Source: Chitinispirillaceae bacterium (lineage in GTDB: Bacteria; Fibrobacterota; Chitinivibrionia; Chitinivibrionales; Chitinispirillaceae). Taken from it: DNA of 64,000 nt. The position numbers and the translations under genes were made by a program. Positions 452 to 25,433 of this stretch are shown here, one piece after another; positions within the stretch are counted from its first letter, which is position 1; every line of letters begins with the position of its first letter. The notes below the pieces were generated by a model. That model saw only the letters and a list, made by a program, of their open reading frames with translations, did not search any database and had not been told where the DNA came from. The stretch spans positions 1 to 64,000 of the forward strand of contig JAFGIN010000049.1 of the NCBI GenBank assembly GCA_016929595.1, given 5' to 3'.

Positions 452-2710
452 TTAAGAAATAAATTCAGCTCTGAATTCTTTTGCAGCCTCCCGGAATAAA
501 CTGCGGAGGACATCAAGAAAATCAGATGCCTCTTTTTCTGGTATCGCCTGGGGTACAGGTGCGACACTTTCATAAATTGTACGAACTTTTCTAGCACGAT
601 TTATAGTCGAACCCCTTCCACTCAGTTGATATGCATCTTTCCAATTTCCAGTATTTTGCATTGCCATACGTTCTCTGATAAGTGCCAGTAATTTTCTGGT
701 TGTCCTTTCTGATATTTGCTGCGCAACAAGTTCTTTTTGCTCTTGAGAGGCATTTTCTGGTTTCCATCGTCTTGGGTTATTGATAAAGCTAACCAATCTA
801 TCAAGCATTGATTGCAATAAGTCTGCGATTGGCTTGAGGTTATCATATTCGTCAGCTGTTTGTTCCGCGTATCTTTTTGAAAGTGCTTTTACTCGTGACC
901 AATGCTCTGGTTTAATGGAGTCTAAGACAGAGAGATTAAGCCTGGAATTCCACTGCTGATGGAACGAACTGTATGCAGAATGGATACACAACACAAAATT
1001 AGCCATATCATAAACTGGTATAGCATCAGATAAAGGTACTTTTTCAATTGATGCCATGAAAAATTTGATCATTGCTTTTAACTGATCAATTGTACCTTTC
1101 GATCGCTCTCCTAAATTTTCATTCAGGCGTCCGAGAAAGAAGGTCCTCCCATTTTCGAGCATTTTTAATAGTTGTGTGCCTGTATTTGAAATTGTTTGAG
1201 AATCAATAGCTTGTAACGTATTTCGAATTGAACCGAATACATGTTCACGTTTATCATGAACTGTTGGTAAATTAGGTCCGGAAACCTGGTCGAAATGAGT
1301 CAATGCAACAACCACTTTTCTTGCATGCCCTGAAGTAGTAAGAGATCTCAAAGCACTGGCAGTTGCGGCCTGTGCGGGTTGTTGGGCATTATCTACAATT
1401 ACAATTGTATCTGAATAATCAAATTTATCGATAATTGACGATGAAACATTGGTTGCAGTTGAAGGTGTATGGCCCAATCCTTCACCGTCTAAAAACACAA
1501 TTTTAGGAAATGGTTCAGCTTTATTCCAGTTTGGTATAAATGGTCCCTTTACCCGCATGCCACTTACGACAGGTGCCAGCAAGGCACCAAAATATGATGC
1601 ATAGTTACTTGAAAAGCGGTTTATGGTTTTGAGAAACAATGCACGATCATCACAGATAAAATTCCAACTGACAGGCCATTCATCAGAAGTATCTCTTTCA
1701 AGTTGACCCTGATCAATTAAAGTGAATTTGTTTTCAATAATATTTAGGATATCATCAACAAGAGTTTGAGTTTTATCAGAATTCTGAGCATTTTCTTCTG
1801 ATAAATCTAAATATGCTATTTTATCAACGGGTTGTAATGAGTCATATTTATCGCCTAATCCTTGTGTTACAGATGCCTCAATTTCTTCAGCGATGTTTTT
1901 TATTACTGATATAATTTCATGTAACTTATCATTTAATAACCTTTTATCTGGTATGGAACTATCTTCATTTATAGTTTCTGGTTCATATTCATGTAATTCA
2001 TCTTCGTCATAATTGTCCTCATCCTCCTTCAGATCTTTAGGAAGCGGATAACTTCCAAGAACATAGCTAAGCCTGAATCTTTGCTCTTTATGTTCTAATA
2101 GGTTGCGTGCAATTTGCAGATCATTTTGTCCTTCAATTGCTGATAGAGTACTTGCTATAACGCATTCTTCGACATACATCCTTGTCTGCTCACGTGAAAG
2201 AAACGAAACAGCACACTCGAATTGTCCTTCAGATAAGATAACCTCAGTATCAAATGTTGTAGTTTTAGCGGTGGAAACAGATGGAAACCGTTCCTTAATA
2301 GGATCAGTACCAATAAATTGCCTAAGTAAGGTAGTTTTACCTGCTCCTGTTGTACCAAGTAAAAGAACTTTACTGTATCCATCTTCGATTGTAGGTAAGG
2401 GTAGTATTCCATCTCTAATTTTAATAGGTGGAATCACTAAGCCAGTCACATTCTCAAAAAAAGCTCTTATAACTATAGAATCAAACTTTTCTTCTGCAAT
2501 TTTACGTGCAGATTGAGTCCACATATTTTTATCGGAAAGTAGCTGATTAATCTGCTCGATATAATTTTCAGCTTTTTGCTCATCGTCAGTTCCAAGGCCC
2601 CTTCTGACTCTTACCGATTTTCCACCTTTTGTTTTTAAAGGGTGAAAAAAGATTGCGCACCAACCGTTTCTACCTCTACTCAATTTTGCCGTAAAACCTT
2701 TTTTATCCAT
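452..2710 (-). CDS. GTPase with N-terminal integrase-type DNA-binding domain
   Basis: The protein has 752 residues. Residues 1-60 resemble the AP2-like/arm DNA-binding domain of tyrosine integrases (GRNGW near the start, then a basic VRVRRGLGT strand and a helix). A P-loop GTPase core follows: G1 GTTGAGKT at about 119-126, G3-like DGEG near 410 and G4-like THFD near 470. A long helical insertion between G1 and G3 includes an acidic run (about 235-255). The start is set by GGAG six bases before ATG 2710. The two ATGs further upstream (2737, 2728) have no ribosome site and fall at or before the predicted transcription start. It has its own promoter and operator, 300 bp from the next gene. A role in phage sensing or as a mechanical GTPase is only inferred from position at the end of a defence island. 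Confidence 0.75.
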   Translation of the reverse strand: MDKKGFTAKLSRGRNGWCAIFFHPLKTKGGKSVRVRRGLGTDDEQKAENYIEQINQLLSDKNMWTQSARKIAEEKFDSIVIRAFFENVTGLVIPPIKIRDGILPLPTIEDGYSKVLLLGTTGAGKTTLLRQFIGTDPIKERFPSVSTAKTTTFDTEVILSEGQFECAVSFLSREQTRMYVEECVIASTLSAIEGQNDLQIARNLLEHKEQRFRLSYVLGSYPLPKDLKEDEDNYDEDELHEYEPETINEDSSIPDKRLLNDKLHEIISVIKNIAEEIEASVTQGLGDKYDSLQPVDKIAYLDLSEENAQNSDKTQTLVDDILNIIENKFTLIDQGQLERDTSDEWPVSWNFICDDRALFLKTINRFSSNYASYFGALLAPVVSGMRVKGPFIPNWNKAEPFPKIVFLDGEGLGHTPSTATNVSSSIIDKFDYSDTIVIVDNAQQPAQAATASALRSLTTSGHARKVVVALTHFDQVSGPNLPTVHDKREHVFGSIRNTLQAIDSQTISNTGTQLLKMLENGRTFFLGRLNENLGERSKGTIDQLKAMIKFFMASIEKVPLSDAIPVYDMANFVLCIHSAYSSFHQQWNSRLNLSVLDSIKPEHWSRVKALSKRYAEQTADEYDNLKPIADLLQSMLDRLVSFINNPRRWKPENASQEQKELVAQQISERTTRKLLALIRERMAMQNTGNWKDAYQLSGRGSTINRARKVRTIYESVAPVPQAIPEKEASDFLDVLRSLFREAAKEFRAEFIS

Positions 2711-2719
2711 AGAGACTCC

Positions 2720-2793
2720 GTTGTTCATGTTGTTCATTTAATATACACTACAAAAAATCAGTATGCAAGAAAAAATTGAACAACGTGAACAAC
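2720..2793. promoter_or_regulatory. Four-copy TGAACAAC operator flanking the GTPase promoter
   Basis: Two tandem copies of the octamer TGAACAAC (one base between them) read on the minus strand at 2720-2736, and two more read on the plus strand at 2777-2793. The two 17-bp arms are inverted repeats differing only at the central base. One arm covers the predicted +1 and the other sits just upstream of the -35. This suggests autoregulation, perhaps by the gene product's own N-terminal DNA-binding domain. Confidence 0.65.
2740..2768 (-). promoter_or_regulatory. Sigma70-type promoter of the GTPase gene
   Basis: Read on the minus strand, TTGCAT (2768-2763) and TATATT (2745-2740) are separated by exactly 17 bp. 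Transcription would start near 2733, leaving a short leader before ATG 2710. This supports the shorter protein start. Confidence 0.6.
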
Positions 2794-3012
2794 GTTACGT
2801 TTTTTCCAAAATTGTGGATGCTTTAAACGACTTGAATTGATTTTGATTGTATAGGTAGCATTAGTTGCTGTAAGGATGGACTGAAGCGCTTGGATGTGTT
2901 AGATCTACCCTCTTATCCAAACCGGAAGAATGATCAAGGCTGGGAATTTTTAGCTTTATGAGACTGAATACAGCATTTCGTTCATTACTCTAAAACACCT
3001 TCCAACTACAGT

Positions 3013-3444
3013 TCACAACGCCGAATTATCAATATACTCTCGAATCCTTGCATTTGACCAGTTTGCGGCCTTTGCAAATACATGTTCATTCAGGATGTAC
3101 TCTGTTACACTATCCAAGTTGGTTGGACAAGTTTCAAGATTGTCATTCTCATTATCATCCAGTTCGTAACTATCTTCTGTCTGAAGGAAAACGGCATCCT
3201 GTTCGTAGGGCTTGAGTTCAGTAACTTTACCATAAACGAATTCCCTGACAGTATCCTCATAGGTTTCCCACAATAATTCCTTTTCAAACTGTACCTGGAC
3301 ACATATTTCATCCCATAAATTTCCCAGGTCAGGCCTTACATCCTTATAATACTGGCAGTAGGAAATTGTTTGTCGAGTAACCCGCTTACACGCATTTTCT
3401 GCAATAATTTCAACTATTCTGGATTCACATCTTTCTCTACTCAT
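3013..3444 (-). CDS. Small protein of unknown function, last gene of the helicase operon
   Basis: The 143-residue protein is not a family I recognise. Its N-terminal half is mixed-charge and probably helical (SRERCESRIVEIIAENACKR). The middle is acidic (residues about 95-115) and the C-terminus reads NARIREYID. ATG 3444 has AGGT eight bases upstream. A TTG at 3468 would overlap the helicase stop by 4 bp and is the alternative start. The gene follows the SF1 helicase directly and must be co-transcribed with it, so it is likely an accessory subunit of the same system. No catalytic motif is visible. Confidence 0.65.
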   Translation of the reverse strand: MSRERCESRIVEIIAENACKRVTRQTISYCQYYKDVRPDLGNLWDEICVQVQFEKELLWETYEDTVREFVYGKVTELKPYEQDAVFLQTEDSYELDDNENDNLETCPTNLDSVTEYILNEHVFAKAANWSNARIREYIDNSAL

Positions 3445-3464: not shown

Positions 3465-5558
3465 TCAAATCCCCAAAAGCTCAGACTTTCTCCCCACTCC
3501 TGTAATCGTTACATTCTCTCTTGCACGGGTAACGGCGACATAAACCATCGATTTCTCATTCCTCAGATAACTTTCCTGTTCTTCTTTTGCATAATCATCA
3601 AAATCAAATGGCTTTGCCGGGACTGTTCTATCGTTTGTGTCAACTATGAAAATGTGTTTAAATTCCAAACCTTTAATTCTGTGGAAGGTTAAAAGATTTA
3701 CCACATTATCCGCAGAGCTTCTTTCTGATCCATTATCATCATAGGGAATTTTGAGCTTGTGAAGCTCGTTACGGAATTCCTTCAAGCCATCTTTTTTTCG
3801 TGCACAAATGGCTATATCAGAATGCTGGCATCCCTGCTCAAAAAGATGTGTCAAACTCTCGAAAACAGAACTGACTTCCTCTTCTTTTGTTTTAAAAACA
3901 GTATAAGTTGGTTTGATGCCATGGTACAGGGAGATATACCCAGCTTTCTGTTCCTCTTCTCCATTGTAGTTATCATATTTGCAATCAGCAATGACAGAAA
4001 CTGCCAGTTTTTTAATTTCTTCGGTCGTTCTATAATTTATTCGTAAGCGGTGACTTCTTTTTCCCCGAATATTGATACCCGCTTGTGAAAAGTTGATACA
4101 TTTACTGTAAATAGATTGTAATGGGTCACCAACAAGAAACAGATCATTATTTTTTTCAGGTACAAGGCATCGGATTAGGCGCAATTCGACGTTTGAAAAG
4201 TCCTGTAGCTCATCAATTATACAATAAGTAAAAGGTGTGCTCTTAATCCCCTTGCAATGGGTCGAAAGAATATTATAGAGTTCATCTTTATAGTACAGAT
4301 TATTCCCGGAACGTTTTTTGTCGAACTTCTGGAAGAATTCCCAGATCTCCTGTCGTTGCCTTCTGGTAATTGGTTTACCACGCCCTTTTCTTGATGTTCT
4401 CACATACTCATCAAAGTTCTGGATTCCATTATAGAGAATAACTTGTTTATATTCCGCTTCAAGAAACTCCGGAGAAAAGCTTGTAAGTACTTCTGCGACT
4501 ATCTCCTCCCAGAACTCGGAGGCATTTTTAACTGAATCAATTTCGAAAACTTTGAAACCATTCGGTAGTAATGAATGCTCTTTTACAAGTGAATATACAA
4601 GCTTATCAATATTTATGAGGGTGATGTGGCTTGTATCGATATTGAGGCCTTTGATCAGCCCCGTTAAATTTTCTGTAAGTGCCTTTGTGAATGTTGAAAA
4701 GAGAATCTCTTCACCAGCTTGTCTGATCTCACTGAGGTATTTCAGACGATGGAGTGCTGCAACAGTTTTACCGGTACCTGCACCGCCGCTCACTTTCACG
4801 GAACCTTTAAAATCTCCACTGACAAGTTTCCTTTGTGACGGGTGCAAGTAGTATTTCCATTTACTCAGGCTTCCCGACAGTGCTTCATTAAAGAGTGAAT
4901 CATCAGTCAGTTCAATAAAAGACCGCTGGTTATTAAAACTTTTGACCTGTTTATCCGGATCTTCATCACCGACACGACCTTCACTTATCTCAGTTATAAG
5001 CTCATCGATCTTTGCGCCCTCAAGGAGATAAAAGAGGTTCTCAAATACATCTGCAGGAATAAATTTTTCTAATTTTTCCAGATCAACTAAAGTATCTATG
5101 TTCCTGATCGATGGCAGAAGTACTTCCGGTACTCCTATTTTTATAAGTTTTTCAGAATCAATTCGACCAAAGAATGTTTTCTGAACAACTTCAACAGGAA
5201 TAGCAGGTGTCTCGTCGAGTTTAGCTTCAGGAGCGGTGAACATCTGTACCGATTGTGTAACCTCATTCCATTGGAACACTTTATTCGCAGCCCAGGCATA
5301 TGCCTCATCATGGTGATCTACCCATAAGAGATAGAATACATCACCTGCCTCTGGCGATTTAATAATGGCACGATATGTTTGATCAACACGTGCAGATCGT
5401 AGCGACTTATCTTTGTTGTTCAAAAGAGGTTCGAGATGTATCCCGGCAGCTTTTGAATCTTCTCTGAATTTCTTTTGGAAGTCAACAACCTTTTTCTGTA
5501 TTGTTTTAGGCAGGTTGATAAAAGAATCCCAGAATTTATCGTATACCAGTAGTTTCAT
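3465..5558 (-). CDS. SF1 (UvrD/Rep-like) helicase with RelE/ParE-like N-terminal domain
   Basis: The protein has 697 residues. Residues 1-95 have the layout of a RelE/ParE-type fold, ending in a WVDHHDEAYAWA stretch, as seen at the front of some UvrD-like helicases. The SF1A helicase core follows: Walker A GGAGTGKT (about 257-264), DELQD (Walker B), GDPLQSIYS (motif III), NYRT (motif IV), HRIKGLEF (motif V) and VAVTRAR (motif VI). The motifs look intact, so an active 3'-5' DNA translocase is expected. The gene overlaps the giant helicase by 23 bp, so the two proteins are translationally coupled and probably act together. Whether the N-terminal domain cleaves RNA, binds a partner or is a structural relic cannot be read from sequence. 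Confidence 0.85.
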   Translation of the reverse strand: MKLLVYDKFWDSFINLPKTIQKKVVDFQKKFREDSKAAGIHLEPLLNNKDKSLRSARVDQTYRAIIKSPEAGDVFYLLWVDHHDEAYAWAANKVFQWNEVTQSVQMFTAPEAKLDETPAIPVEVVQKTFFGRIDSEKLIKIGVPEVLLPSIRNIDTLVDLEKLEKFIPADVFENLFYLLEGAKIDELITEISEGRVGDEDPDKQVKSFNNQRSFIELTDDSLFNEALSGSLSKWKYYLHPSQRKLVSGDFKGSVKVSGGAGTGKTVAALHRLKYLSEIRQAGEEILFSTFTKALTENLTGLIKGLNIDTSHITLINIDKLVYSLVKEHSLLPNGFKVFEIDSVKNASEFWEEIVAEVLTSFSPEFLEAEYKQVILYNGIQNFDEYVRTSRKGRGKPITRRQRQEIWEFFQKFDKKRSGNNLYYKDELYNILSTHCKGIKSTPFTYCIIDELQDFSNVELRLIRCLVPEKNNDLFLVGDPLQSIYSKCINFSQAGINIRGKRSHRLRINYRTTEEIKKLAVSVIADCKYDNYNGEEEQKAGYISLYHGIKPTYTVFKTKEEEVSSVFESLTHLFEQGCQHSDIAICARKKDGLKEFRNELHKLKIPYDDNGSERSSADNVVNLLTFHRIKGLEFKHIFIVDTNDRTVPAKPFDFDDYAKEEQESYLRNEKSMVYVAVTRARENVTITGVGRKSELLGI

Positions 5559-8500
5559 ATTCCGTTTCCCTTAATTCATCTATACTAACTAATGTAAAAC
5601 TATTTTTCTCAAAAATTTCTTTATCAGCTTCAGAGTATGGATTGTATACTTGTTTTGTTGATGTCATAATAAGTTCTGCCTCTGCTAACACATTACCATT
5701 TTCATCGAGAAGCGAATTGAGTTGTATTTCATCCTCTTCTGATTGCAGGAGCCCAGCATTGTATAGTTTCCATAGTGCATCATGCAACACCGATGGAAAT
5801 GCAGCAATAATGGCATCAATGTTTATTGTTACATCACAGGGTGTTTTTTGTTCGGTTGATTCATAATCAAAGAATTGAATCAGATTGAAAATTGCCCAGA
5901 ACTGGTTCCAGCTTTTTTTATCGATCTCATCGGTACTATTAACTGTGTATCCTCCAAAGAGAGTACTATTTTTTATATTTACCGCAAATTTAGCCGCAAA
6001 CAGGGGATTCTGTTCTACTAACGAAACAGGTACCCAACCATCTAATGTTCTATTATTGATACAGAAAGTATCCATTACACTATTCTGTAATGCATCCTGT
6101 ACCTTATCAGGAGCAAATGATGGTGTAAAAAGTTTCTTCTGAAAGAAAGCACAATAGAGTGAAATATCATTCTGGATCTGCTTGATAGTATCTATAGATT
6201 TAAGTGCTTCAAGCAATCGTATAAAGTTATTCTCAAATTTTTTAGGAGCAGTTGTATCTCTTTTTACTGCTTGCAAAAGTGTAGCTCTGGTTTCCAGAAA
6301 CCCTTTTTCTGCATGAAGTCGATCGTGGAGAAAATCGTTGCGTTTAGCCTTATCATCTTCACTAAGGTATCCATCAAAATGTTCAATATCATCCCATGTC
6401 AATGTCCATGTATAATGATTTCCAGAATTAACAACAGCTTTTCTTTTCTCTATATCTTTTAAAAAGCTGTTATGCTCTTTTGATGCGTGGAACTGATACC
6501 CATCGAGATATATGGCAATTCTGTGTAATGAACTCTTATCTTCGACTACTAACCCGTTTATTTCACAATGTGTACATATAATCAAAAAGTCTGTACGGGT
6601 ATGAAATTCAACTCCATCTGCACGACCAAGATTCACTTGTGGTCTGATATGAAAGTGCAGCTTTTTATAATGATCCTCATATGATAATTTGTAGGAGATG
6701 GTACCGTCATCATTAGTTTCTGAAATGCGCCAGTTTTCATTTTTGTTTGCCAATTTTTTGAGGCTTCGGATAAACCGCTCTTCCAGTTCTGATTCTTCAA
6801 TATTACCACTGTTTGTCAGATTTCCTAAACCACTGGGATGTGTCTCCCAATCCTCGATTCGCTTAACAATCTCTTCAAACCTTTTTTCTGCCTTGGCCCT
6901 GCTTAATTCTGCCTGGTGATACTGATTCGAATATGAATAGATGCAATGGTAGCAACCATCTTTATCCATATACTGACATGAACAGCTCTTAATCTCCTTA
7001 TAAGAAGCTAGCAGAAGTTTACTGAATTCATTAACATTAAATATTTTTTCGAGATAACCGGTACCACCGGGGATTGAATCATATAGTACGAGATATTTAT
7101 CGAATTTTGTGGTGATGTGATTATACTCACTATATACGGAAATTCTTATATGTTCCGGGTTTCCTTTGAAATACTTTTTCAAACCCAATTCGATACCAGC
7201 CTGAAACATTTTGATTTCAGCATCACTGTTTAGTTCCTGAACAGGGAGTAGAATCTTCAATGCTTCCGTCTGCATCTGCCGAAAGAAGAAAACCTCTTCA
7301 AAAACATCATCCGAAACGCCATTGTAATTTCGGTCTTTATATTTACAATAGCCATAGTGAAACTTGTAATCATTTCCATTTACTTTTTGACGAACATGCG
7401 AGGAGCTTTTTCCGCACAACCTGCAGGTAATAAAGCCATGAGCGGGGGCTTCCGTTTCATTAATTTTTACTTTTCTCGGATCAACAACATCTTTTCTACC
7501 GAGATTAGTGTCGGTAATAGTTACCTCTTTAAAGAACTCAATCCCGAATGGAATATCTTTCATTGCATAAGCACCACGGGAGTTATTCTCTTTGAAGTTG
7601 AAATGCTGAAGAACATTGTAGCGAATTTTTTCTCGTTCATCACTACTGTCATTTATTGATGCATCTGACTGATTGTTGAATGATTTTACTGAAAGTAATT
7701 TCGCAAAGGTGTGTACATTTGACGATGATCCCCACGATTCATGGTTACATTTGGGGCAATACCCTTTGGGTGCTGTCTCATCCATTTCGATATGATCACA
7801 GTTTGAACAGAAGCGCTTTTTATGAAAACTGTTTCTGTCTGACCAATCAAAGGTATTGATACCTGTTACCAGGAACTTAAACCCCTGTGAATAGAAAAAA
7901 TTATCCGGGGCAAACTCCTTAAGTGCCTGGCTTGCAGCCCTCACAATTTCAAAATCTTTGTTCAGTGGTACTTTGTTACTTGAAGCAGCCTGGTTACCGA
8001 GTACTTTTGCAGTAAGTGTAACGCCGGTTTCGGGAAAGGCATAGTTTGGAAGAGCTCCCGCATTAGTCAGATGCTCCAGAGTGTTCCGCTTCTTGATCGA
8101 CATGATAATGCCACCAAGATTCTTTTTTTCGTTCTCAAGTTCAATCCGTTCAGGGTCTTTTTTACCTAATTTAAGTTCTTTAATCCGGAGTTCTATTTCT
8201 TTACGGATTTCCTGAATTTTATAAATATCATCTTTTAAGTTAACAAAGATATTCCTGTTGAACTGGTAGAAGTTATCACTGTCAAGCTCATACCGGAGAT
8301 GATCAAAGACTTTAGCATCCACATCATGAAGATACCCGTTTTTGAATGAATTGAACAGTTTGTCTTCATTAACTTTAATGTAATGCAGAATCTTATTTAC
8401 AAAGAAATCAGTAGACAGAAGATCTGAAGTTTCAATACGCAGTGCATTGATATTGTGTGGAATATGGTTATTTTTAGGATCGAGACGGGTCCAGGAATCG

Positions 8501-11500
8501 ATACAGAAAGCAAAAAAATGACGTTTCAGGATCTCCTTAGCCTCAATATAACAGCCAGGTGTATTGACCTCTCCCACCATCATTTCCAGTGGTTCTGTAT
8601 AGTAATAAAGATCGTGATCCTTACTTTGTGCAAAGTTTACAACAAGTGCAGAACCAGACGCGCGCCCTGCACGTCCTATACGCTGAAGAAAATTTGATGG
8701 CTGTGGTGGAATAGAATTGTTGATCGCCGTATTGAGCGTACCAATATCGATTCCCATTTCAAGAGTACTTGTTGCTACAAGTGCATTTCTGGAATTGAAA
8801 TTCGGTCTGGTCTTAAAATCTTCTTCAAGAAGTTCCCGTGGCTTACGTGGAATCAGGCCCGTATGATCTGCCGCGTAGATCCTTGGAGAACGGTTCCGGT
8901 TATAGACAAGTTGATAGTAATTATTCTTTTCAACAACATCATCTATTTTGTATGCACCCTGACACCGGTGTACAAGGCACTTACCACCTGTTAAATCATG
9001 TTCAGTCTCGCCAACAGTTAACAAGTGTCCACATTCTGAACATGAATATGCTTTTATGTTATGAGTTACAAAGAGCTTTTGCGGGCTAATAGCAACATTC
9101 GTTTTTTCTTCGGTATTCGCTTTATCTACAATGCCGATCTTTACCATAGCCTCGATAAGTTGTGTGTAAAAATCATTTACCATGTCTACATAATTTGATG
9201 CAAGCGGAAAACATTTTTTATAGTATTGATGAAACCAGTTTGATGTTTTTGCATGGGTACTGTCCAGGAGTCCCCTGGATTCGGGATAACTGGTAAGAAG
9301 TTTAGGTAAACGAGTACGCGATCCAAATTTTCTGTTGAGAAAATGGCGCGAATCCTTCATCCAGTTCAAGTCCCACAACTTGAGGTCGTGTTCTCGGAAC
9401 TTTTCCAAATAACAGTGGCTTACCGCTCCACGCACCCGAACACGGTGCAGCACCAGTTCTATAAAACGTAAAAACGAGTCTTTATCAATTGTACCTGATC
9501 TATCATTTTCACGTAACCACGGCTCCATAGAGTTCCATACAGCAAGGAGATCTTCTAAAACGAAAAATGTTGCTGATGACAAGGTCTTCTCTAACGTTCT
9601 ACCAATCTGTGCGTCATAACCAAATTCGGAAAAACATTCCCAGGTGATACGATCGTCAAATTCCTTTACGAAGTGTAGCTCATAAAACCCACTGTCGTTT
9701 TTATAATCCTGCGGGGCTGATTTACCAAGGTAATCAGTGGGATAGAAGCGATAGTAAAAAGCATCGAGAGGATTCTTCCCTGTCTCATCGGAATGCTGTT
9801 TCCAATAGGTAATAAACTCACCGGCAAGTTCCTGCAACGATATAGCCCTGTCCAGCTTGTTGATAACTCGCTGCAGTGATGAACGAAAGGTGAAACGGTA
9901 ATTTCGCGCTTCAATAAATCCTGCCTGATGTGCAGCATCCTGCACAGAATTAGTGAATGCCAATACTTTTCGATTCTGCTCATTCTGTATATCAAGATCT
10001 GTTGCCAATACCTGGCTGACCGTAATACTGCTCAGTGTGGCGACACGGGTACCAATGATTGAAACACCGTTTCGTGTATTACACTCCGGGCAGACATGGT
10101 CATTATAACCACTGCTGGTAAGTTTTCTGAATGCGGTGATGTCTGTTCTTTTATCTTCGGTGTCACTATGCAAGATAAGTGTTACATTATCAATAAATTT
10201 GTGAAAAGTATCATTTGCCTCATAACCGCAATCGATCGCATCCTTCTGTGAAAACCATGATGTTCTATTTGCAAAGTAGATGTGTTTGTGATTCGAGAAA
10301 AACTTTTCGTAGATATCATTGATCTCTTTTTCGAATCGTTCTTTATTGTCATGTTTGATACCTAACCATCCTGATGCACCACATTCACGGCAGAACCATG
10401 GTGGCAACGCCAGACGGTCATCCTGATCGATATCAGCCTTCCAGGTAAAGTGCGGCTGCTCACTGATTGTTCTGAGCACACCACTAAGTTCCCGTATCCA
10501 GAGCTGTGTCTGTATGTAAAGAAACGGTGTTTTACGTCCATTCTGTTGATCAACTACGTAAGCTTCAGATATCAAAGAAAAGAGCGATAGAACAATACTC
10601 TCTTTAGGGTTGAATTGAAACTGCTCATTCCACTGAGGGACATCTCTGAAGTTTTTGTTGCGACTCGAAAGATTCTTTACGATAGTCTCCAGTGTATGGA
10701 CACCTTTATCCTTGTTCACCACGGCAACAAGATCCTTAACAAGCTTCAGTTTTATCAGATCCTGGGCAAGGGTAGACCTGTCCATCTGCCAGAACCCAAT
10801 CTGCCGTTCGATATACTTATCATAACCTTCACCAGTCAGCGGTTTTACATCTTTAAGAACATTGGTTCGTGGTGTAAACGTTTCCAGTAAATCATCATCC
10901 GCAAAGAATTCTTCAACCGTGATTCTTTTTTCAGCAACAATGCAGTCCGGTTGAATTGTTTCCCCAAATATCTTCGATGCATAATCAGAAAGCTGCAGTG
11001 AAGCATCCTCACCGGTACCGATTGTTGCAGATGTTCCAACAGGGCAAAGGTGATTTTCCGGAATAGACAGTTTCAGCTTCAGACGACGGATCAGATTGGC
11101 TACATCAGTTCCCTGAGCACCATCATAGGTGTGCAACTCATCAAGAACAAGGAATTGTAAGAGTTCAGGATCCTGGTAATTCCCCAGCCAGAGATCGTTG
11201 TAGTTTCCCTTCATCAATCCATAGTCAAGCATTTTAAAATTGGTCAGAAGAATATCCGGCGGGGATGACAAAATTGATTCCCGGTTTTCAATGATATGAT
11301 CCGGACCCATTGTCTTAGGGTATTTCGCAGCATCCTTTCCCTCACCGATAAACAGACCTGCAGTAATCCTGCCCCTCAGCCGCTGATCATCATTGATATA
11401 CCCAGCAAGTCGTTTTGCCTGATCCGTCGCAAGCGCATTCATTGGATAGAGAATAATAACCTTGATCCCCTGGCGATGCAGATTGCGATGACAATAGTCA

Positions 11501-11850
11501 AGAATCGGAAACAGAAATGATTCAGTTTTTCCTGAACCGGTCCCAGTAGTGATAATAGTTGGTTCAGCTTTTTTGCCAACGGTACTGAGACGATGCCACG
11601 ATTTTACCTGATGATCATAGGGGAGCCATGATGGCTTAATTGTTAATGGAATATTCTGAAGGTCATTTTCGTTTGCTTTAACAAATGGTAGTTTCAGCGA
11701 TAAATAGGGACCTTTGAACATTCCTTCTGATGGATGAGTGACAAAATCGTAAAACGCTTTGTGCACCTCTTTATCCTGAAAAGTGAAAGTCGCTTTAAGA
11801 TATGCGAGAATCGACTCCTTAATTTCAATTGCCTGATTGAGACTTAACAT
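5536..11850 (-). CDS. Giant DEAD-box helicase with DUF1998 and C-terminal nuclease-like domain (DruE or DrmA/DrmB-like)
   Basis: The protein has 2104 residues. The N-terminal helicase lobe carries Walker A TTGTGSGKT (near 100) and DELHTYDG (near 240). A very long insertion separates it from lobe 2, which carries TSTLEMGIDIG (near 1030) and QRIGRAGRASG (near 1056). Several Cys pairs that could form zinc ribbons occur (CRECG near 490, CPECN near 590, CSECG near 940, CSNCD near 1345, CRLCG near 1475). The DUF1998 signature CSCQYMDKDGCYHC lies near 1640. Beyond it (about 1765-1840) RADGVEFHTRTDFL, YLDGYQFH and DIEKRK resemble a Vsr/DUF559-type endonuclease. Druantia DruE and the DISARM DrmA+DrmB pair share the helicase-DUF1998 plan. 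I cannot assign it to one of them without a profile search. It probably translocates on and cuts invading DNA together with the neighbouring proteins. Confidence 0.85.
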   Translation of the reverse strand: MLSLNQAIEIKESILAYLKATFTFQDKEVHKAFYDFVTHPSEGMFKGPYLSLKLPFVKANENDLQNIPLTIKPSWLPYDHQVKSWHRLSTVGKKAEPTIITTGTGSGKTESFLFPILDYCHRNLHRQGIKVIILYPMNALATDQAKRLAGYINDDQRLRGRITAGLFIGEGKDAAKYPKTMGPDHIIENRESILSSPPDILLTNFKMLDYGLMKGNYNDLWLGNYQDPELLQFLVLDELHTYDGAQGTDVANLIRRLKLKLSIPENHLCPVGTSATIGTGEDASLQLSDYASKIFGETIQPDCIVAEKRITVEEFFADDDLLETFTPRTNVLKDVKPLTGEGYDKYIERQIGFWQMDRSTLAQDLIKLKLVKDLVAVVNKDKGVHTLETIVKNLSSRNKNFRDVPQWNEQFQFNPKESIVLSLFSLISEAYVVDQQNGRKTPFLYIQTQLWIRELSGVLRTISEQPHFTWKADIDQDDRLALPPWFCRECGASGWLGIKHDNKERFEKEINDIYEKFFSNHKHIYFANRTSWFSQKDAIDCGYEANDTFHKFIDNVTLILHSDTEDKRTDITAFRKLTSSGYNDHVCPECNTRNGVSIIGTRVATLSSITVSQVLATDLDIQNEQNRKVLAFTNSVQDAAHQAGFIEARNYRFTFRSSLQRVINKLDRAISLQELAGEFITYWKQHSDETGKNPLDAFYYRFYPTDYLGKSAPQDYKNDSGFYELHFVKEFDDRITWECFSEFGYDAQIGRTLEKTLSSATFFVLEDLLAVWNSMEPWLRENDRSGTIDKDSFLRFIELVLHRVRVRGAVSHCYLEKFREHDLKLWDLNWMKDSRHFLNRKFGSRTRLPKLLTSYPESRGLLDSTHAKTSNWFHQYYKKCFPLASNYVDMVNDFYTQLIEAMVKIGIVDKANTEEKTNVAISPQKLFVTHNIKAYSCSECGHLLTVGETEHDLTGGKCLVHRCQGAYKIDDVVEKNNYYQLVYNRNRSPRIYAADHTGLIPRKPRELLEEDFKTRPNFNSRNALVATSTLEMGIDIGTLNTAINNSIPPQPSNFLQRIGRAGRASGSALVVNFAQSKDHDLYYYTEPLEMMVGEVNTPGCYIEAKEILKRHFFAFCIDSWTRLDPKNNHIPHNINALRIETSDLLSTDFFVNKILHYIKVNEDKLFNSFKNGYLHDVDAKVFDHLRYELDSDNFYQFNRNIFVNLKDDIYKIQEIRKEIELRIKELKLGKKDPERIELENEKKNLGGIIMSIKKRNTLEHLTNAGALPNYAFPETGVTLTAKVLGNQAASSNKVPLNKDFEIVRAASQALKEFAPDNFFYSQGFKFLVTGINTFDWSDRNSFHKKRFCSNCDHIEMDETAPKGYCPKCNHESWGSSSNVHTFAKLLSVKSFNNQSDASINDSSDEREKIRYNVLQHFNFKENNSRGAYAMKDIPFGIEFFKEVTITDTNLGRKDVVDPRKVKINETEAPAHGFITCRLCGKSSSHVRQKVNGNDYKFHYGYCKYKDRNYNGVSDDVFEEVFFFRQMQTEALKILLPVQELNSDAEIKMFQAGIELGLKKYFKGNPEHIRISVYSEYNHITTKFDKYLVLYDSIPGGTGYLEKIFNVNEFSKLLLASYKEIKSCSCQYMDKDGCYHCIYSYSNQYHQAELSRAKAEKRFEEIVKRIEDWETHPSGLGNLTNSGNIEESELEERFIRSLKKLANKNENWRISETNDDGTISYKLSYEDHYKKLHFHIRPQVNLGRADGVEFHTRTDFLIICTHCEINGLVVEDKSSLHRIAIYLDGYQFHASKEHNSFLKDIEKRKAVVNSGNHYTWTLTWDDIEHFDGYLSEDDKAKRNDFLHDRLHAEKGFLETRATLLQAVKRDTTAPKKFENNFIRLLEALKSIDTIKQIQNDISLYCAFFQKKLFTPSFAPDKVQDALQNSVMDTFCINNRTLDGWVPVSLVEQNPLFAAKFAVNIKNSTLFGGYTVNSTDEIDKKSWNQFWAIFNLIQFFDYESTEQKTPCDVTINIDAIIAAFPSVLHDALWKLYNAGLLQSEEDEIQLNSLLDENGNVLAEAELIMTSTKQVYNPYSEADKEIFEKNSFTLVSIDELRETEYETTGIR

Positions 11851-11866
11851 GTTTTAATTTTCCAGT

Positions 11867-13375
11867 TTATTTTCTGGAGGTTACTTCCCAGTAACCACCT
11901 TTATCGGGTCCAATTCGTTTAAGTAGTCCATTTTTTCGCAAATTACGGATATTCCAGTCAACAGTGTGGTATGAAATAGATAACTTTTCTGAAATGCTTT
12001 TTACAGTGATTTCCCTGTCATCCTGAATAAGCCGAAGAATTTTCTCCGTAGTTTTCTCCGTAGTTTTCTCCGTAGTTTTCTCCGTAGTTACACCGCCAGT
12101 TTCAATGCCAACTACGTTTTTTGGTGTTTCACTGTCTTTTTCCCCGACGTTTTCACCGACACCATTTCTTGTTATATCTTCAAATTGTTTGATTGTCTCT
12201 AGTTTAAAACTCAGTATAACGGAATCGAATTCTATTATGTACTCTGGCCTTGTGTCATTATAAGCCCTCCAGTTGTCATCGATTTTATCGAGGCCAAATC
12301 CGGCGTTTTCTGCGAGTTTAACCATCCGGAAAAGTTTTGCAAGTACCGGGTTTCTGGGTAATGAAATATCTTTACTTTTCAGTTCACTGAATGGTTTGGG
12401 CAAACCACCCGGGTTATAATACTCTATACGATCAGTAAAAATGCGTATGCGGGAGCGGGATGGCGAAAAATAATCGGCATGCATGAGCATGTTAACCAGT
12501 GCTTCACGTATGCTGACAAGTCCGGGAGAGAGCTCCTCTCCAAACCCTTCAGCAGTCAAAGTAAAATGTACATCTACTTTTTGTTTTAATCGGGCAAAAC
12601 ACTCAAAGTAGTATTCCCAGAGATTTTCCTGTTCATCGAGTCTAAACGTGTAACGCTGTCTTGCATCTGTATATGATGTACCCGGAATTTCAAGCAGATC
12701 GATTCGGAAATCCGGGAAATGTTTTTCGATTGCATCCCGTTTACCAAGCATGAGAAGACCCGCAAAGGTACACTGATCACCATCCATGATACGCATCTTC
12801 TGTAAAAATTCTGACTCATCATACCGGTTGTAACTGGCATTGGGGCTGAATCGAGACATGTAATCGCGGTAGCGTCGCAGTGATGTGTCATTCAGGCTGT
12901 TCCGGCTGGTGCCCGGCGCTGTTTTTGTTGTTCTGGTGCCAAACGCCCGGTCGCGCAGCATACTGTCAATCTCTTCAGATGTCGCGCGTTGGTCCCCACT
13001 GCCCCTGCGGATAAATGTATTCGCCTGTGTGTTGAAATAAACAGGTTTATTGGGGTGTACAGGGATGTAAAATGCAATAACCGATTTTTCATTAAATGTG
13101 AAATGTTCCTGCTTTGTATCAATAAAGACATTAAACTTTTCACTTCGCAGGGTATTTAAAAAGTCCTGTGAAAGTTTTTCGGCATTGCCAACCCCTGAAA
13201 TCTCGTAATTCTTTTTATTTTCAGTAACACCTAGTACCAGCCATCCTCCGCTGGTATTGGAAAACGCTGATACTGTTTCCCATACGGACTTAGGAAGTTC
13301 ACTCTGAGCAGCTTTTACCTCGAAATCTTCCCATTCGAGGTTTGTAAGTTTTTGTATAAGTTCTTCTTTATTCAT
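11867..13375 (-). CDS. AlbA/Schlafen-type ATP-binding protein with C-terminal HTH (COG2865-like)
   Basis: The protein has 502 residues. An AlbA_2 (Schlafen-like) domain fills the first 130 (DFEVKAAQ, then SGGWLVLGV). A GHKL/HATPase-4-type region follows at about 285-365 (REALVNMLMHADY, NPGGLP, GFGLDKI). A low-complexity linker repeats KTTE four times, and the C-terminus is a winged helix (about 440-500, ISEKLSISYHTVDWNIRNL). Such proteins usually act as DNA-binding regulators. In defence islands they often sit beside methylases and helicases as sensors or regulators. The gene lies 16 bp upstream of the giant helicase, with which it forms an operon. It has no clear Shine-Dalgarno before ATG 13375. 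A REP-like cluster separates it from the methyltransferase gene, so it may have its own promoter. Confidence 0.85.
   Translation of the reverse strand: MNKEELIQKLTNLEWEDFEVKAAQSELPKSVWETVSAFSNTSGGWLVLGVTENKKNYEISGVGNAEKLSQDFLNTLRSEKFNVFIDTKQEHFTFNEKSVIAFYIPVHPNKPVYFNTQANTFIRRGSGDQRATSEEIDSMLRDRAFGTRTTKTAPGTSRNSLNDTSLRRYRDYMSRFSPNASYNRYDESEFLQKMRIMDGDQCTFAGLLMLGKRDAIEKHFPDFRIDLLEIPGTSYTDARQRYTFRLDEQENLWEYYFECFARLKQKVDVHFTLTAEGFGEELSPGLVSIREALVNMLMHADYFSPSRSRIRIFTDRIEYYNPGGLPKPFSELKSKDISLPRNPVLAKLFRMVKLAENAGFGLDKIDDNWRAYNDTRPEYIIEFDSVILSFKLETIKQFEDITRNGVGENVGEKDSETPKNVVGIETGGVTTEKTTEKTTEKTTEKILRLIQDDREITVKSISEKLSISYHTVDWNIRNLRKNGLLKRIGPDKGGYWEVTSRK
12040..12087 (-). repeat. Four perfect 12-bp tandem units in the AlbA-family gene
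   Basis: TTTTCTCCGTAG (plus-strand reading) occurs four times head to tail without a mismatch, encoding four KTTE units in the linker before the HTH domain. The unit is a multiple of three, so copy-number changes alter linker length without breaking the frame. Confidence 0.9.
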
Positions 13376-13695
13376 AATATGCGTATTCTTTAAATATGAT
13401 ATTTTTGTTAATAATTGTGATATTATTTATCCCGCCCTTACAGGGCTTGAAAACCGTTGTAACCATTTCGTTAACCCGGCAACCCAGGCCTTCGCATTCG
13501 CTACTGCCTGGGCTATTAAATCACGCCCTTTCAGGGCTAATATTCAATGGGTGTCATCCCATTTTCTAAGCTCTGAAGGAGCGGTATACAATAGCCCGGG
13601 CTGAAGGCCCGGGTTATTGTACGCAAATTAATTTTTTAGCCCTGAAGGGGCGTGATAATTGCCAATTGACATACCACACTCTCTCATAACTAATA
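13376..13695. repeat. REP-like hairpin cluster inside the defence operon
   Basis: At least five short GC-rich palindromic elements lie in an otherwise AT-rich gap. They are CGCCCTTACAGGGCT (13433-13447), a CCCAGGC/GCCTGGG hairpin (13483-13512), CACGCCCTTTCAGGGCTA (13522-13539), a 14-bp-arm hairpin at 13587-13621, and an inverted copy of the third element (13637-13657, AGCCCTGAAGGGGCG). The inverted outer copies and the central long hairpin resemble REP/REPIN elements mobilised by RAYT (Y1) transposases. They could also act as a transcriptional attenuator or mRNA stabiliser between the two gene blocks. No gene is seen here. Confidence 0.75.
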
Positions 13696-16600
13696 TCACC
13701 CTTCCGACTCCCCTCTCTTTACGGGAGAGTGGCTGGGCGGTGCACTGAGTCCCGATGTGTCGGGATCGAAGTGGGAGAGGTCAAAAACCATCTCAAAATG
13801 CGCCCACGCGGTTTTGTAATCCTCTATACGATCGCATTTGTCGAATGGAGCAGGATAGATCACCTTTTTGCCGTAATATAGTTCACTTTTTGTAATGGTA
13901 TGTTCATACGTTTCTCCGGCTTTCATATCACGGATTTTTTCCCAGTCCGGACGGTCGACTCCTACGCCGTTGAGCCCTTTGGAGCAGGTGAAAACAATAT
14001 TACCTGTTGTATCGTACCAGGTGTCATCTTCGTTCTGCTGAAGAACAGGGAACTGCACATTGTAAATTAGTATAAGCTCTTCGAGAGTTAAACCCAGAGC
14101 CATTGCGGTGATAACATCTATCTCAACAAGGGCTTGTCTGCGCTCATACCAATTACGGAGAGGAGTTACCCACTGCCACTCTTTTGTGAGCGTGTGGAAT
14201 GGTTTGAGACGAGGGTCGTTTTTACTCCAGATATCTTTAATGAATGATTCCTGGAAGTTGCGTTCCCAGAGAGGGGCGTAGTATTTGTTGAGGCAGTTGA
14301 GAAGTAATGTACGGCTTAATAATATTGTTTCGTATTTTTCAGGTATTTCAATAGGAAATTTGCTTACAGTATCGTAGTTTACATGACCCTTTCCAATAGA
14401 TTTTACAAAAAAGTCCATAATAATAGAACACGTTATTGCACAAAGGGCAACTACAGTTTTCTCTTCAGGAAAAGAGATCGTAAAAATTGTATTAATATGT
14501 GAAATTTTTGGAGCAATTATCGCCGGTTGGAGTGATCTCTCAGATGAAGTACCTATCATTTCCTTAAATGATAATCTATACTGGTCTATCCACAGCCTTT
14601 CATCGAAATCCTTTTTAGTGTATTCTAAAAATTTTTCCATTTCTATTGCTGGACTATAGTTCACAGTAGGAACATAATTCTCTTCAATTTCACTTAAGTT
14701 AACGACATCAAAATCAGAATTCAGTAAGCATGGCACTCTTGGACTCTTATAAATCGGTGTACCAACAAAGAAATTGGGCCCACTATATATAATTTCATAA
14801 TTCTCAATATTGCCAGTTATAGTTTTTCTACTTATTATCCCATTATTTACGGCATTTGTTTGATGAAAGCATTCAGTAGTAAAAAATTGTGTGTCTCGAA
14901 CAGCTTTACCACCTCCAATTTTCTTTAGTACTGAAACAATTTCTTTTGAATGCGTACTTATTAATTTTACAGTTTCCCAATTATCATTTCCTTCAAATGT
15001 TTTTGAAATAGTAAGCAGCTCATCTTTTGTAATATTAACGACCCTAGATCTATGGGGATGAATATTCCAAACGAGTTTTGCGGAATTAACATCTTTTACT
15101 TTATACCCCCCAACAAATCCTTCACCATTGTGTACAAAACACCCGTCTATTGTTGCTGGATGAAATAAATTATTTATCGAAATAAAACGAACATTGTTTT
15201 TAATACTCCCGTAAACATGTACTCCGTAAATAGTTTCGTGATGGACTTCAGCAAAAAGGACTAACTCATTCCTAAACTGAAAATGGTAAACCAATCGCTG
15301 GTACACTTCTTTACGTAATAAAAACCCATTCGGATCGTCATAAATACCTTCTGGATGTAGTAACCCTAAAAATCCATTCTGAGAAATCCAATGAAAACCA
15401 TTTTCAATTACACACTTGTATAAATTTGTCTGTTGTCCTTTGAGAAGAGGATAATTCTGAAATGCATTCATAAATGCACTAGATGCTTCTATTTCAATTG
15501 CCTCAGCATAATAGTTTTCTTTTTGTTGGACAATTGATAAAAATTCCTGTTGCATTTTCCTCGCCTGAGGCGCAGACGCTTGTCTTATCTCAAGTTCAGG
15601 AAATACCTCACTCATAACCCCTTTTTCCTCAAAGGTAATCTTCAACCACGGTGGGTTCCCGACTGCAATATCAAACCCACCCTTTTCCCTGAACACTTCT
15701 ACAAATTCCAACTGATAATGAAAGAACCTGTACATCTCTGCATATTTCGTTACCAGTTTCACCCTGTTATTATCAAACAGTGTTGTTTTTCCTACATGGT
15801 CTGCCAGTTCTTTCCCTGCCTGTAAACTCTTCTCTTTTTTTCGATAATTCGCAAGATCCTCAGCGGTTTCGGTGCCTTTCAAGGTATAATCCAGAATATA
15901 GAGGATATCTTCATACCATTCATAGCGACTCGGTAGATCTGCAGCCTTTCGTACATCCCAGAACCACAAACTGCACCAGTAGTCCATAATCATCTTCAGT
16001 TTAAAATAGGGAGCGTTGTGGTTAATACGCTGATTAGCAATCTTTTCTTTCTCTTCGTAGCTGCGAAGATCAAGTTTCCCCTGTTTAGCAAGATCATCTG
16101 CACCAAAAACAATGATACTGCTATTAGTGTCCTCGTTGATTCGTTTCTGATAGATGTAATGTTCTTCTAAAAGTACATCTATCTTTTCAGAGATCTTTTT
16201 CAGTTTAAATACTTCATCGGCATCAATGGGTGCGCAAAACTCCCTTTTCCATTTACTGACCTTTGCCGCTTCAACAGGGTATTCCGATTTAAGTAATGCG
16301 ATCCCTGCAGAGGAGAGCATACCGGTATCCGGCAGCAGAAAGTGATAGATTTCGTTATCTTTACGCTGGATACCGTTTTTACCGAATGAGAGGTGTTTGG
16401 GCTCAGTTGTCCACCACTCTTTTTTATCCTTCGGTTTTTTGGGATCAGATTGTATTGCACTGGTGGTGTACACTTTCAGCCAGGCACCGACAACCGCGTT
16501 ACCAGTACCCAGACGGTATCCGAAAAACGGTGTCTGCATATCCTTGTGTATCACATTCAGCCAGAGTGATAGTTTGCCAAGCTCTACTGCAGTCGGGTTG

Positions 16601-18537: not shown

Positions 18538-18546
18538 AGGGAAAGG

Positions 18547-21414: not shown

Positions 21415-21773
21415 AGGTTATATCCTATATATTGGATAATAGCTGATAATATGATTGATGAAATGTTTGGTTTTACACCAGATGTTGCAGTAATTTGTTT
21501 TTGTGTATCAAGGATCATCTGTTTTAACTGTGAATGCACTCTGATCTCTAACCGATTATTTTTGGGCAAGTCATCATCTGGGATAATTTGTGGAATTTGA
21601 GGGTTATTCTGTCCAAAGCCGACAAATTCTTTAATCGCCCGATTTGCAGTTTCCATAATTGATTCGAGGTTTTTTTCGCAATATGCCTCAAGTGCGTTTT
21701 TAAGATCAGTACTTAAACGAACCTCGATTCTTTGAGTTTTGCTTTTTGATTCAGTCTGTGGTTTGCGTGGCAC
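21411..21773 (-). CDS. Ribbon-helix-helix-type regulator leading the DISARM-like operon
   Basis: The protein has 120 residues. Two similar segments (QRIEVRLSTDLKNALEAYCE near 15-35 and NRLEIRVHSQLKQMILDTQK near 72-92) each look like a beta strand followed by a helix, as in ribbon-helix-helix DNA-binding proteins. It may be a tandem RHH protein that can bind two half-sites as a monomer. The start is GTG 21773 with AGGA seven bases upstream. It is the first gene of the operon and overlaps the SNF2 helicase gene by 4 bp. The gap in front of it holds repeated CGTAC/GTAC sites that are probably its operator. The likely role is autorepression of the defence operon. Confidence 0.75.
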   Translation of the reverse strand: MPRKPQTESKSKTQRIEVRLSTDLKNALEAYCEKNLESIMETANRAIKEFVGFGQNNPQIPQIIPDDDLPKNNRLEIRVHSQLKQMILDTQKQITATSGVKPNISSIILSAIIQYIGYNL

Positions 21774-24328: not shown

Positions 24329-25187
24329 ATACTACTCCTTTCCGGTATCTTTTCATAAATGTTCTTTTGTTAAAAATAATCTGTGCAAGTGCAGTTTCAA
24401 GACCTGTATTGTAAATTACATCACTATAGTGATACTCCAAAGGGTTACCGTTTTGAAAAAATCTCCCAGAAGGATCAATCATCAGGTAGCTATTGGTCAT
24501 ATCAACATTATCTTCATACCACACATTACCGTTTCTGTCTTTATTTACAATATTAAAGTTTTTATATTGTTCATCTGAAATTCCACAATTAGAACCAAAT
24601 GGCAGTTGTCTAAGCACTTTTATTTTTTGGGGCCCAAGTGTCTGTAGTTTAGGAACTATGACTTCATTCCAGTTAAAAGCATTGACTACCACATTGAATT
24701 TAATAATGCAATCAGAGTTTATTTGTCTGATATCATTGACTGTTTTTACAAGAGTTTCATAATCGAGTATTTTATTTTGGTTGGTAGATCTTCCAATTTT
24801 ATTGTTTGTATCCATAGAGAAAGAATCCACTGAAATACCCACAACTGAAAGCATAGAAACAAGCTCCATATTTTTTCCAAGGAGAGAGCCATTGGTGATA
24901 ATTGAACATTCGAATCCGTGCTTCGTAGTTGCAGATGAGATAATTTCTTTCAGGTGACTTCCTAAAACCAGAGGTTCTCCCCCAGCAAAATTAATTCTCA
25001 CCTTTTTGTTAACAAAATCAAACTCATTAAAATTTTTACTGAGCTTGGATTTTGAGAGTGCATTAAAAAGGCTTTCAACAAGATATTTATCTTTCCAGAT
25101 CTCCTGAAAACTCCTCCATTTTGAAAAACAATAATGACATGAATAGTTACATTTTTCAGTGATGTGCCAGTTGTAAATAAGTTGCAA
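24315..25187 (-). CDS. Prokaryotic viperin (antiviral radical SAM enzyme)
   Basis: The protein has 290 residues. NWHITEKCNYSCHYCF holds the radical SAM CxxxCxxC cluster site (Cys13, 17, 20). FAGGEPL is the SAM-binding GGEP motif. GISVDSFSMDTNNKIGR, KFNVVVNAFNW and the SYLMIDPSGRFFQ stretch match the pattern of animal viperin (DSFDEEVN..IGR, KINSVINRFNV, SYLILDEYMRFLN). Prokaryotic viperins make 3'-deoxy-3',4'-didehydro nucleotides that terminate phage RNA synthesis. The N-terminal amphipathic helix of animal viperin is missing, as expected. The start is TTG 25187, directly after the stop of the upstream gene, with GGAGG five bases away. No nucleotide kinase gene, a frequent neighbour of such enzymes, is seen next to it. 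Confidence 0.9.
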   Translation of the reverse strand: MQLIYNWHITEKCNYSCHYCFSKWRSFQEIWKDKYLVESLFNALSKSKLSKNFNEFDFVNKKVRINFAGGEPLVLGSHLKEIISSATTKHGFECSIITNGSLLGKNMELVSMLSVVGISVDSFSMDTNNKIGRSTNQNKILDYETLVKTVNDIRQINSDCIIKFNVVVNAFNWNEVIVPKLQTLGPQKIKVLRQLPFGSNCGISDEQYKNFNIVNKDRNGNVWYEDNVDMTNSYLMIDPSGRFFQNGNPLEYHYSDVIYNTGLETALAQIIFNKRTFMKRYRKGVVYADK

Positions 25188-25433
25188 CTATGCCTCCACT
25201 TTTTTGAGTGTTTTTATCTTTTTTTCGTAAAGATCATGGTTACTCACAAAAATGGAGCCCTCTACAGAACGTAATACACGATAATTACTGTTGAGTCTGA
25301 ATGAGTACCAGTATTTAAGACCTGATACTTTTTTCCACCCGGTTCCAGTACGAAGAATTCTGCCTGAAACAACCGTTAATGCTCGGTTCTTTACCTTATC
25401 CGGGACAGGGCCTGCGAAATTCAACTCGATCAT
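25188..25433 (-). CDS. RelE/ParE-like small protein upstream of viperin
   Basis: The 81-residue protein has WKKVSGLKYWYSFRLNSNYR followed by a VSNHDLYEKKI ending, the layout of RelE/ParE-superfamily toxins in which a central strand carries Arg and the last strand ends in a His-Asp-Tyr motif. The ATG has AGGAG seven bases upstream. Its stop codon abuts the viperin TTG, so it is the translational leader of that gene. No classic antitoxin gene is next to it. The only upstream gene is the SMP-like protein. It might be a true ribonuclease toxin, a repurposed fold or a regulator of the viperin unit. Confidence 0.7.
   Translation of the reverse strand: MIELNFAGPVPDKVKNRALTVVSGRILRTGTGWKKVSGLKYWYSFRLNSNYRVLRSVEGSIFVSNHDLYEKKIKTLKKVEA

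Follow-up and report, generated by a model that had tools for sequence, protein, structure and literature searches.

In the window, which is the whole stretch of 64,000 nucleotides analysed here, the gene of a predicted dynamin-superfamily GTPase is preceded by a promoter that lies between two facing pairs of short sites. Since this array accompanies the N-terminal domain (NTD) of the protein across phyla, the GTPase very probably controls its own gene, and comparisons of sequence make it likely that it does so by binding the array itself. They support the reading of the initial annotation, in which the integrase-arm-like N-terminus of the protein binds a symmetric operator at its own promoter. 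Within such self-control, repression is clearly favoured over activation. The features of the locus are the following.

2777..2793 (+): site pair 5' of the -35, two TGAACAAC opposite in orientation to the gene, step of 9 bp; exact match, genome-unique, conserved in homologues
2763..2768 (-): -35 hexamer TTGCAT, 3/6 to consensus; sequence and scoring
2740..2745 (-): -10 hexamer TATATT, 5/6 to consensus, spacer of 17 bp; sequence and scoring
2720..2736 (-): site pair 3' of the -10, two TGAACAAC in gene direction, ahead of the Shine-Dalgarno, step of 9 bp; exact match, genome-unique, conserved
2716..2719 (-): Shine-Dalgarno-like GGAG, 5 nt ahead of ATG 2710; sequence
452..2710 (-): predicted dynamin-superfamily GTPase, 752 aa; ORF, alignments, predicted fold; alternative ATG at 2737
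2453..2710 (-): NTD, residues 1-86, proposed DNA-binding head; model, alignment, DUF6538 similarity of other members
1040..2392 (-): region of the dynamin-like G domain (residues 107-557), which includes a helical insert; AlphaFold model, highest VIA-align Z 15.6

An exact-match scan of the 64-kb window places TGAACAAC at 2720-2727 and 2729-2736 on the minus strand and at 2777-2784 and 2786-2793 on the plus strand, which bears out the four-copy symmetric array described around the GTPase promoter. The octamer has 11 occurrences in the window (mean of 3.34 and maximum of 9 in 100 shuffles), 7 of them in further places beyond the four of the array. The tandem 17-mer TGAACAACNTGAACAAC is found at the two array places only in the genome of 6,599,087 bases, and its backwards control at none; a search for other tandem pairs, suggested beforehand, leaves them confined to the GTPase promoter. 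In the direction of the gene, the array reads GTTGTTCA-C-GTTGTTCA ahead of the promoter and TGAACAAC-A-TGAACAAC behind it. The complete order on the minus strand is the inverted pair (2793-2777), 8 bp, TTGCAT (2768-2763), 17 bp, TATATT (2745-2740), 3 bp, the direct pair (2736-2720), GGAG (2719-2716), 5 nt, and ATG 2710. The GTPase probably starts at this ATG (MDKKGF...) rather than at ATG 2737, given that the former is aligned with the starts of the homologues; the frame from ATG 2737 would translate the right pair as MNNMNN.

Homologues of the GTPase were found in 11 plasmid records (8 of them fetched for locus comparison), in at least 74 genome_contigs loci, and in 16 IMG/VR loci. Phage records gave no match to the gene, and within its own phylum it is present in 1 of 167 genomes, namely its own. 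The window and 98 loci provided 99 proteins, of which 82 have the NTD, 13 lack it, and 4 are partial. Clustering at 70% identity reduces them to 55 clusters (44 with the NTD, 9 without, and 2 partial). The partial proteins (L056, L076, L085, and L099) were excluded from the NTD counts. Two of these, L056 and L076, look like frame-broken copies because the NTD is seen in a separate reading frame.

The initial annotation would have been contradicted by a repeat that is not conserved upstream of homologues; the array is instead kept across phyla in loci with the NTD and is absent where the NTD is absent. A strict core, G[A/T]ACAAC within 220 bp, was defined before the outliers were inspected. It occurs at least twice in 71 of the 82 NTD loci and at least three times in 57, and has zero sites in all 13 NTD-less loci; in windows taken from the same loci as background, two or more sites occur in 1 of 1475, and the fetched loci have no strict pair elsewhere. 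Under a relaxed rule, written after inspection of the outlier loci, a site pair lies upstream in 40/44 NTD clusters (76/82 proteins) and in 0/9 NTD-less clusters (0/13 proteins). At least three of the four sites are present in 33/44 NTD clusters (67/82 proteins) and all four in 26/44, while three of four are found in none of the 9 NTD-less clusters. The same rule applied to 4320 random 420-bp windows returns 34 pairs, 9 cases with three of four sites, and 0 with all four. On clusters, the association between three-of-four sites and the NTD has a Fisher p of 3.8e-5, which is not corrected for descent. In a tree of the GTPase part, the NTD changes between present and absent 5 times; the site pair follows in 4 of the 5 independent pairs and never goes the opposite way (p 0.125), and for three-of-four sites the same test gives 2 to 4 of 5 pairs (median p 0.25). 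The putative operator is conserved with the gene, as in autoregulated transcription factors, and is missing without the putative DNA-binding domain, with no pair in 13/13 NTD-less loci at a tree p of 0.125.

Several loci depart from the common layout. Among the 11 NTD loci with fewer than two strict sites, L007, L055, L063, and L082 have facing pairs with a drifted core; the other seven are L005, L012, L025, L041, L044, L057, and L061. The NTD clusters without a relaxed pair are L012, where two right-hand sites lie about 22 bp apart, L026, L046, and L057. The apparently frame-broken L056 has no strict core nearby and a relaxed pair only, L025 has a single site pair only, L020 has six sites, more than usual, and in L005 the array precedes an upstream DUF4258 gene. 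When one mismatch to TGAACAAC is allowed, the NTD-less L008, L009, and L011 each show one single near-site and no pair. In L041 both site pairs have the same orientation, with the core GGAACAC, and its close relative L044 has the downstream pair only, in the same odd orientation. The Rhodococcus loci L057 and L061 have the NTD and no recognisable array. They are sister to an NTD-less Rhodococcus clade and perhaps represent an intermediate state.

The array is rare outside these loci. Scans of 2.9 million IMG/VR contigs for the complete array, using DNA only, returned 2 contigs at the 11-bp step and 12 at the 10-bp step, and 14/14 carry the GTPase when compared with the list of 16 GTPase contigs. 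The 14 contigs correspond to 3 protein clusters and therefore do not count as 14 independent cases. The scans require strict cores and a step of exactly 10 or 11 bp, a pattern to which the 9-bp form of the window does not belong, and they missed the GTPase loci L092 and L099 among the 16. In 385 genomes of one class, scanned by the array only, the 10-bp-step array is found in a single one, the seed genome; one of the 385, G175 (the genome of L023), has the gene and no strict array. Strict pairs are present in 29 of 37 genomes with the gene. In 34 of these, which were also searched for the NTD, 37 strict pairs are situated at the gene; another 11 are scattered elsewhere and never make two facing pairs. 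These stray pairs are at chance level, since the 37 genomes contain 22 occurrences of the backwards control pattern. In the 9 genomes of NTD-less copies there are 2 stray pairs against 3 occurrences of the control. One NTD per genome was found in 34/34 (121 first-look candidates scored in 5 of the 34), in a frame of 749-898 aa, which is the size of the GTPase; none was found among the matches listed for the 9 genomes of NTD-less copies (121 first-look candidates scored in 4 of the 9).

The NTD is probably a DNA-binding domain. Its model (pLDDT 84.5) has three strands and one helix, followed by two further helices, and so presents at the N-terminus the layout of three strands and one helix given as canonical for arm-binding domains (PMC8138268). 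The earlier description as integrase-arm-like holds for this layout, but the kinship in sequence and fold is weak. Of 41 members, 13 match Pfam DUF6538 at E<=0.1 (lowest E 3.8e-4), and the window's own NTD is not listed among these matches. DUF6538 lies at the N-terminal end of both tyrosine recombinases that were checked (L103 and L105). An hhalign comparison of the NTD with seven DUF6538 segments gives a probability of 21% and an E of 0.001; the segments come from 7 of 9 DUF6538 loci, leaving out L102 (weak) and L109 (by eye no integrase). A PDB sequence search with the NTD gave a single match (E 1.2), and its fold matched nothing at E<=0.001 in the PDB and viral models. The top VIA rows for the fold are enolase-family entries at Z <=6.5, a level that is common by the tool's own account. 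In the phylum of the window, DUF6538 was found in 1 of 150 genomes, below cut-off.

The rest of the protein is predicted to be a dynamin-superfamily GTPase, which is more precise than the initial term "GTPase". Alignments place the P-loop GTTGAGKT at 119-126, DGEG at 408-411, and THFD at 471-474. The G4 motif of a large G domain is usually [N/T]KxD-like, and THFD has H where K is usual. The AlphaFold model of the 752-aa protein, built with 38 sequences, has a mean pLDDT of 86.3. A Foldseek search of the PDB returned the bacterial dynamin pair (5oxf), SynDLP, and BDLP at E 7e-7 to 2e-4, with low TM-scores to the query (0.16-0.28 in the first 14 rows). VIA-align gives Fzo1, mitofusins, BDLP, and IniA at Z 12.8-15.6, the best over residues 107-557, and whole-length fits to BDLP and IniA are loose (rmsd 5.8-8.8). 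The protein has the P-loop, the DxxG, and the [N/T]KxD-like motif that define the large G domain of the superfamily, with a fold Z of 15.6. No Pfam or NCBIfam model matched the protein at cut-off, weak matches lying around the P-loop. In PADLOC the only match is mad8 (E 2.1e-4), whose best stretch of 26 residues around the P-loop falls short of most of the protein. Over 19-residue stretches, the window protein is nowhere strongly hydrophobic (maximum Kyte-Doolittle mean of 1.33), and means above 1.6 occur in 3 of 55 cluster representatives (L062, L085, and L099). The stretch lies near residue 655 in L062, an NTD member from Acidobacteria, and near residue 785 in L085, a remote relative from Aureivirga; both are strong and possibly touch the membrane.

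Across 114 sites the consensus is GGAACAAC. The search rule fixes positions 2, 4, 5, and 6 and restricts position 3 to A or T; at the positions outside the rule, G1 is found in 92 sites, A7 in 100, and C8 in 103. The step inside a pair is generally of 10 or 11 bp, being 9 twice (both in the window) and 12 once; L037 has steps of 9 and 11 and was entered as 9 in the comparison with the protein. Between its strands 2 and 3, the NTD has a loop of 9 residues in the window, 10-11 in most members with a 10-bp step, and 12 in most members with an 11-bp step. A loop of at most 11 aa goes with a step of at most 10 bp in 38/40 tree rows, and a loop of 12 with a step of 11 in 24/29; L038, L051, L017, L059, L077, and L080 depart from the pattern. 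Loop and step change only 3 times each on the tree, which covers 90 of the 99 rows (the other 9, in part NTD members, are short or have no GTTGAGK string) and on which the independent-pairs test has no power. The correlation is hence a lead and no proof. As a lead, it is what one would expect if neighbouring heads touch.

The initial annotation called the window's promoter near-consensus with 17-bp spacing. The spacing is indeed of 17 bp and TATATT matches the consensus at 5/6 positions, but TTGCAT does so at only 3/6, which makes the wording generous. A consensus promoter scan of 2700-3020 did not have this promoter among those listed, and when the inner region is shuffled 50 times, 4 of the shuffles score as high as the real one. 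The layout in relatives was measured in the 25 of 44 NTD clusters that have both pairs. There, a sigma-70-like promoter lies between the pairs with a mean score of 9.8 (vs 2.7 for shuffles), and it exceeds all 50 shuffles in 19 clusters, the window's cluster being among the other 6. The spacer is 17 in 20/25, a count that is partly built in because the score penalises other spacers. The -35 is TTGACA in 15 clusters. From the end of the upstream core to the -35 there are 8-9 bp in 18/25 clusters and 7-10 bp in 23/25, and the distance from the -10 to the start of the downstream pair varies from 1 to 20 bp.

We propose that the arm-type N-terminal domain would bind the short sites with one head per site, so that each tandem pair would hold two adjacent subunits, spaced by roughly one turn of the helix, and the promoter of the gene itself would lie between the two facing pairs. 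Occupation of the downstream pair would cover the start site and the leader, and binding to the upstream pair would abut the -35. Both pairs would jointly keep the promoter low in a cooperative way, perhaps through a loop held by contacts between GTPases. Under stress or infection, subunits might be drawn off the DNA, for instance because they oligomerise at a membrane or at some other target, and their withdrawal would free the promoter and lead to more GTPase being made. One may extend this, tentatively and with somewhat less than even confidence, to a switch made of one protein: a bacterial dynamin that would double as a sequence-specific transcription factor, having arisen by the fusion of an integrase-type arm domain with a dynamin GTPase. 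Its DNA-bound form would be both a dormant store and a sensor, withdrawal would deploy the protein and induce its gene, and the hairpin loop of the head would set the spacing of the sites (9, 10, or 11 bp).

The main alternative to repression is itself a form of self-binding, in which the upstream pair would activate by way of RNA polymerase contacted at the -35, repression being left to the downstream pair alone, resulting in a homeostatic or switch-like circuit. It would fit the near-fixed distance to the -35 next to the variable one behind the -10, but a steric role also accounts for the former, and the -35 is already TTGACA in most of the clusters measured. Near-consensus promoters are seldom in need of activation. 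We give this mixed scheme a modest but real chance.

A less probable option, and to us a rather poor one, is that the array serves chiefly to anchor the GTPase, as a docking site or in a centromere-like manner, with promoter control being secondary. Multiple sites, inverted symmetry, and proximity to the gene would all suit an anchor, as would the presence of the gene on plasmids (11 records). However, the sites are in register with the promoter, and copies also occur on chromosome-titled records, e.g. L047.

The window GTPase gene is the last gene behind a defence island that comprises a DruE-like helicase, a UvrD-type helicase, a Schlafen/HTH protein, a type IIG methyltransferase (also DrmMI-like), a DrmD-like SNF2 protein, an ankyrin protein, and a viperin homologue. 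The row of genes at 5536-21414 (-), with the DruE-like 2104-aa helicase, the Schlafen-AlbA/HTH protein, the type IIG/DrmMI-like methyltransferase, and the DrmD-like SNF2, is mixed, with parts that recall Druantia, DISARM, and type IIG systems together. Adjoining the DrmD-like gene, a 120-aa protein at 21411-21773 (-) resembles by eye two tandem ribbon-helix-helix units and has no such Pfam match. The viperin homologue at 24315-25433 (-) matches pVip with an E of 1.3e-79 and is followed by the ankyrin-repeat protein; the 81-aa protein ahead of it is RelE/ParE-like by eye and has no Pfam match. The UvrD-type helicase at 3465-5558 (-) begins with about 95 residues that by eye resemble a RelE/ParE-type toxin fold, and for which Pfam lists no RelE/ParE part.

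The statement that the GTPase belongs to a defence island is accurate for the window, where the island surrounds the gene, but a comparison with control regions does not establish a general association with defence: PADLOC models matched 62 times among 106 neighbour proteins (12 loci) and 32 times among 128 control proteins, with many matches redundant per protein. Of 20 control regions requested from the same genomes 15 existed, and 12 of the 15 pairs were kept by a size filter applied before scanning. Neighbour families recur in 5 of the 55 loci at most, and the most frequent one resembles, by its start, a type I restriction subunit. The GTPase gene looks like a solitary gene that is sometimes beside mobile or defence genes, and a function of the protein in defence would be a guess.

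This context also bears on the idea that the sites are targets of another regulator encoded in the island, such as the 120-aa protein or the Schlafen/HTH protein (11867-13375), both of which share the island with the GTPase gene. Tandem short repeats are often the targets of ribbon-helix-helix repressors, a habit that would fit the 120-aa protein. Yet the array tracks the GTPase across phyla while no neighbour family does so beyond 5/55 loci, it is missing where the GTPase has no NTD, and the tandem pair is found in its own genome at the GTPase promoter only. We consequently reject this explanation, which we rate slightly below that of the anchor. Lower still is an action of the sites in RNA, as a leader element or a block of the ribosome site: the downstream pair does lie in the leader, where it adjoins the Shine-Dalgarno (window) or is near the start codon (homologues), but the upstream pair is inverted and ahead of the -35, hence outside the transcript, and we reject this reading too. 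A chance repeat, to which the 7 further copies of TGAACAAC in the window might point, has practically no probability and is rejected, given that the array is conserved upstream of homologues and rare elsewhere.

The self-control that we favour has a parallel in RptR, described as a dedicated 9-kDa repressor from a phage defence island (PMC12255303). RptR is reported to repress its own promoter through short 9-bp direct repeats lying over it, with 6-bp palindromic sites overlapping the -10, and protein and site are conserved and tied to restriction systems. In contrast, the putative regulator here is a 752-aa GTPase, and the sites are non-palindromic and lie on both sides of the promoter. Arm-binding domains of integrases read accessory DNA sites with three N-terminal strands and one helix (PMC8138268), whereas here the head is joined to a dynamin-like GTPase and the sites are in its own promoter, with weak matches in sequence and fold. 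In its predicted G domain and, loosely, in its helical parts the protein resembles bacterial dynamin-like proteins (BDLP, SynDLP, IniA, and the 5oxf/5owv pair), but it differs from them by the NTD and the promoter array, by a large helical insert before the DxxG, and by having no strongly hydrophobic stretch. Among bacterial dynamins, DynA of B. subtilis is described as delaying phage lysis (PMC8844932). GTPase genes are also known from bacterial conflict loci, where GTPase-centred systems are described as pairing them with a GAP1 partner gene (PMC7159879), whereas the loci studied here have no conserved partner. The words "dynamin", "integrase", and "operator" are absent from the accessible text of that study, and a literature search found no report of this GTPase family.

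The known role of bacterial dynamins is to remodel membranes. If one of them does read DNA, it would link the state of a GTPase to gene control in one protein. The array, the head, and the natural copies without both form a ready test set. Moreover, as the IMG/VR scans illustrate, the array is a DNA signature that singles out an unnamed GTPase family on its own.
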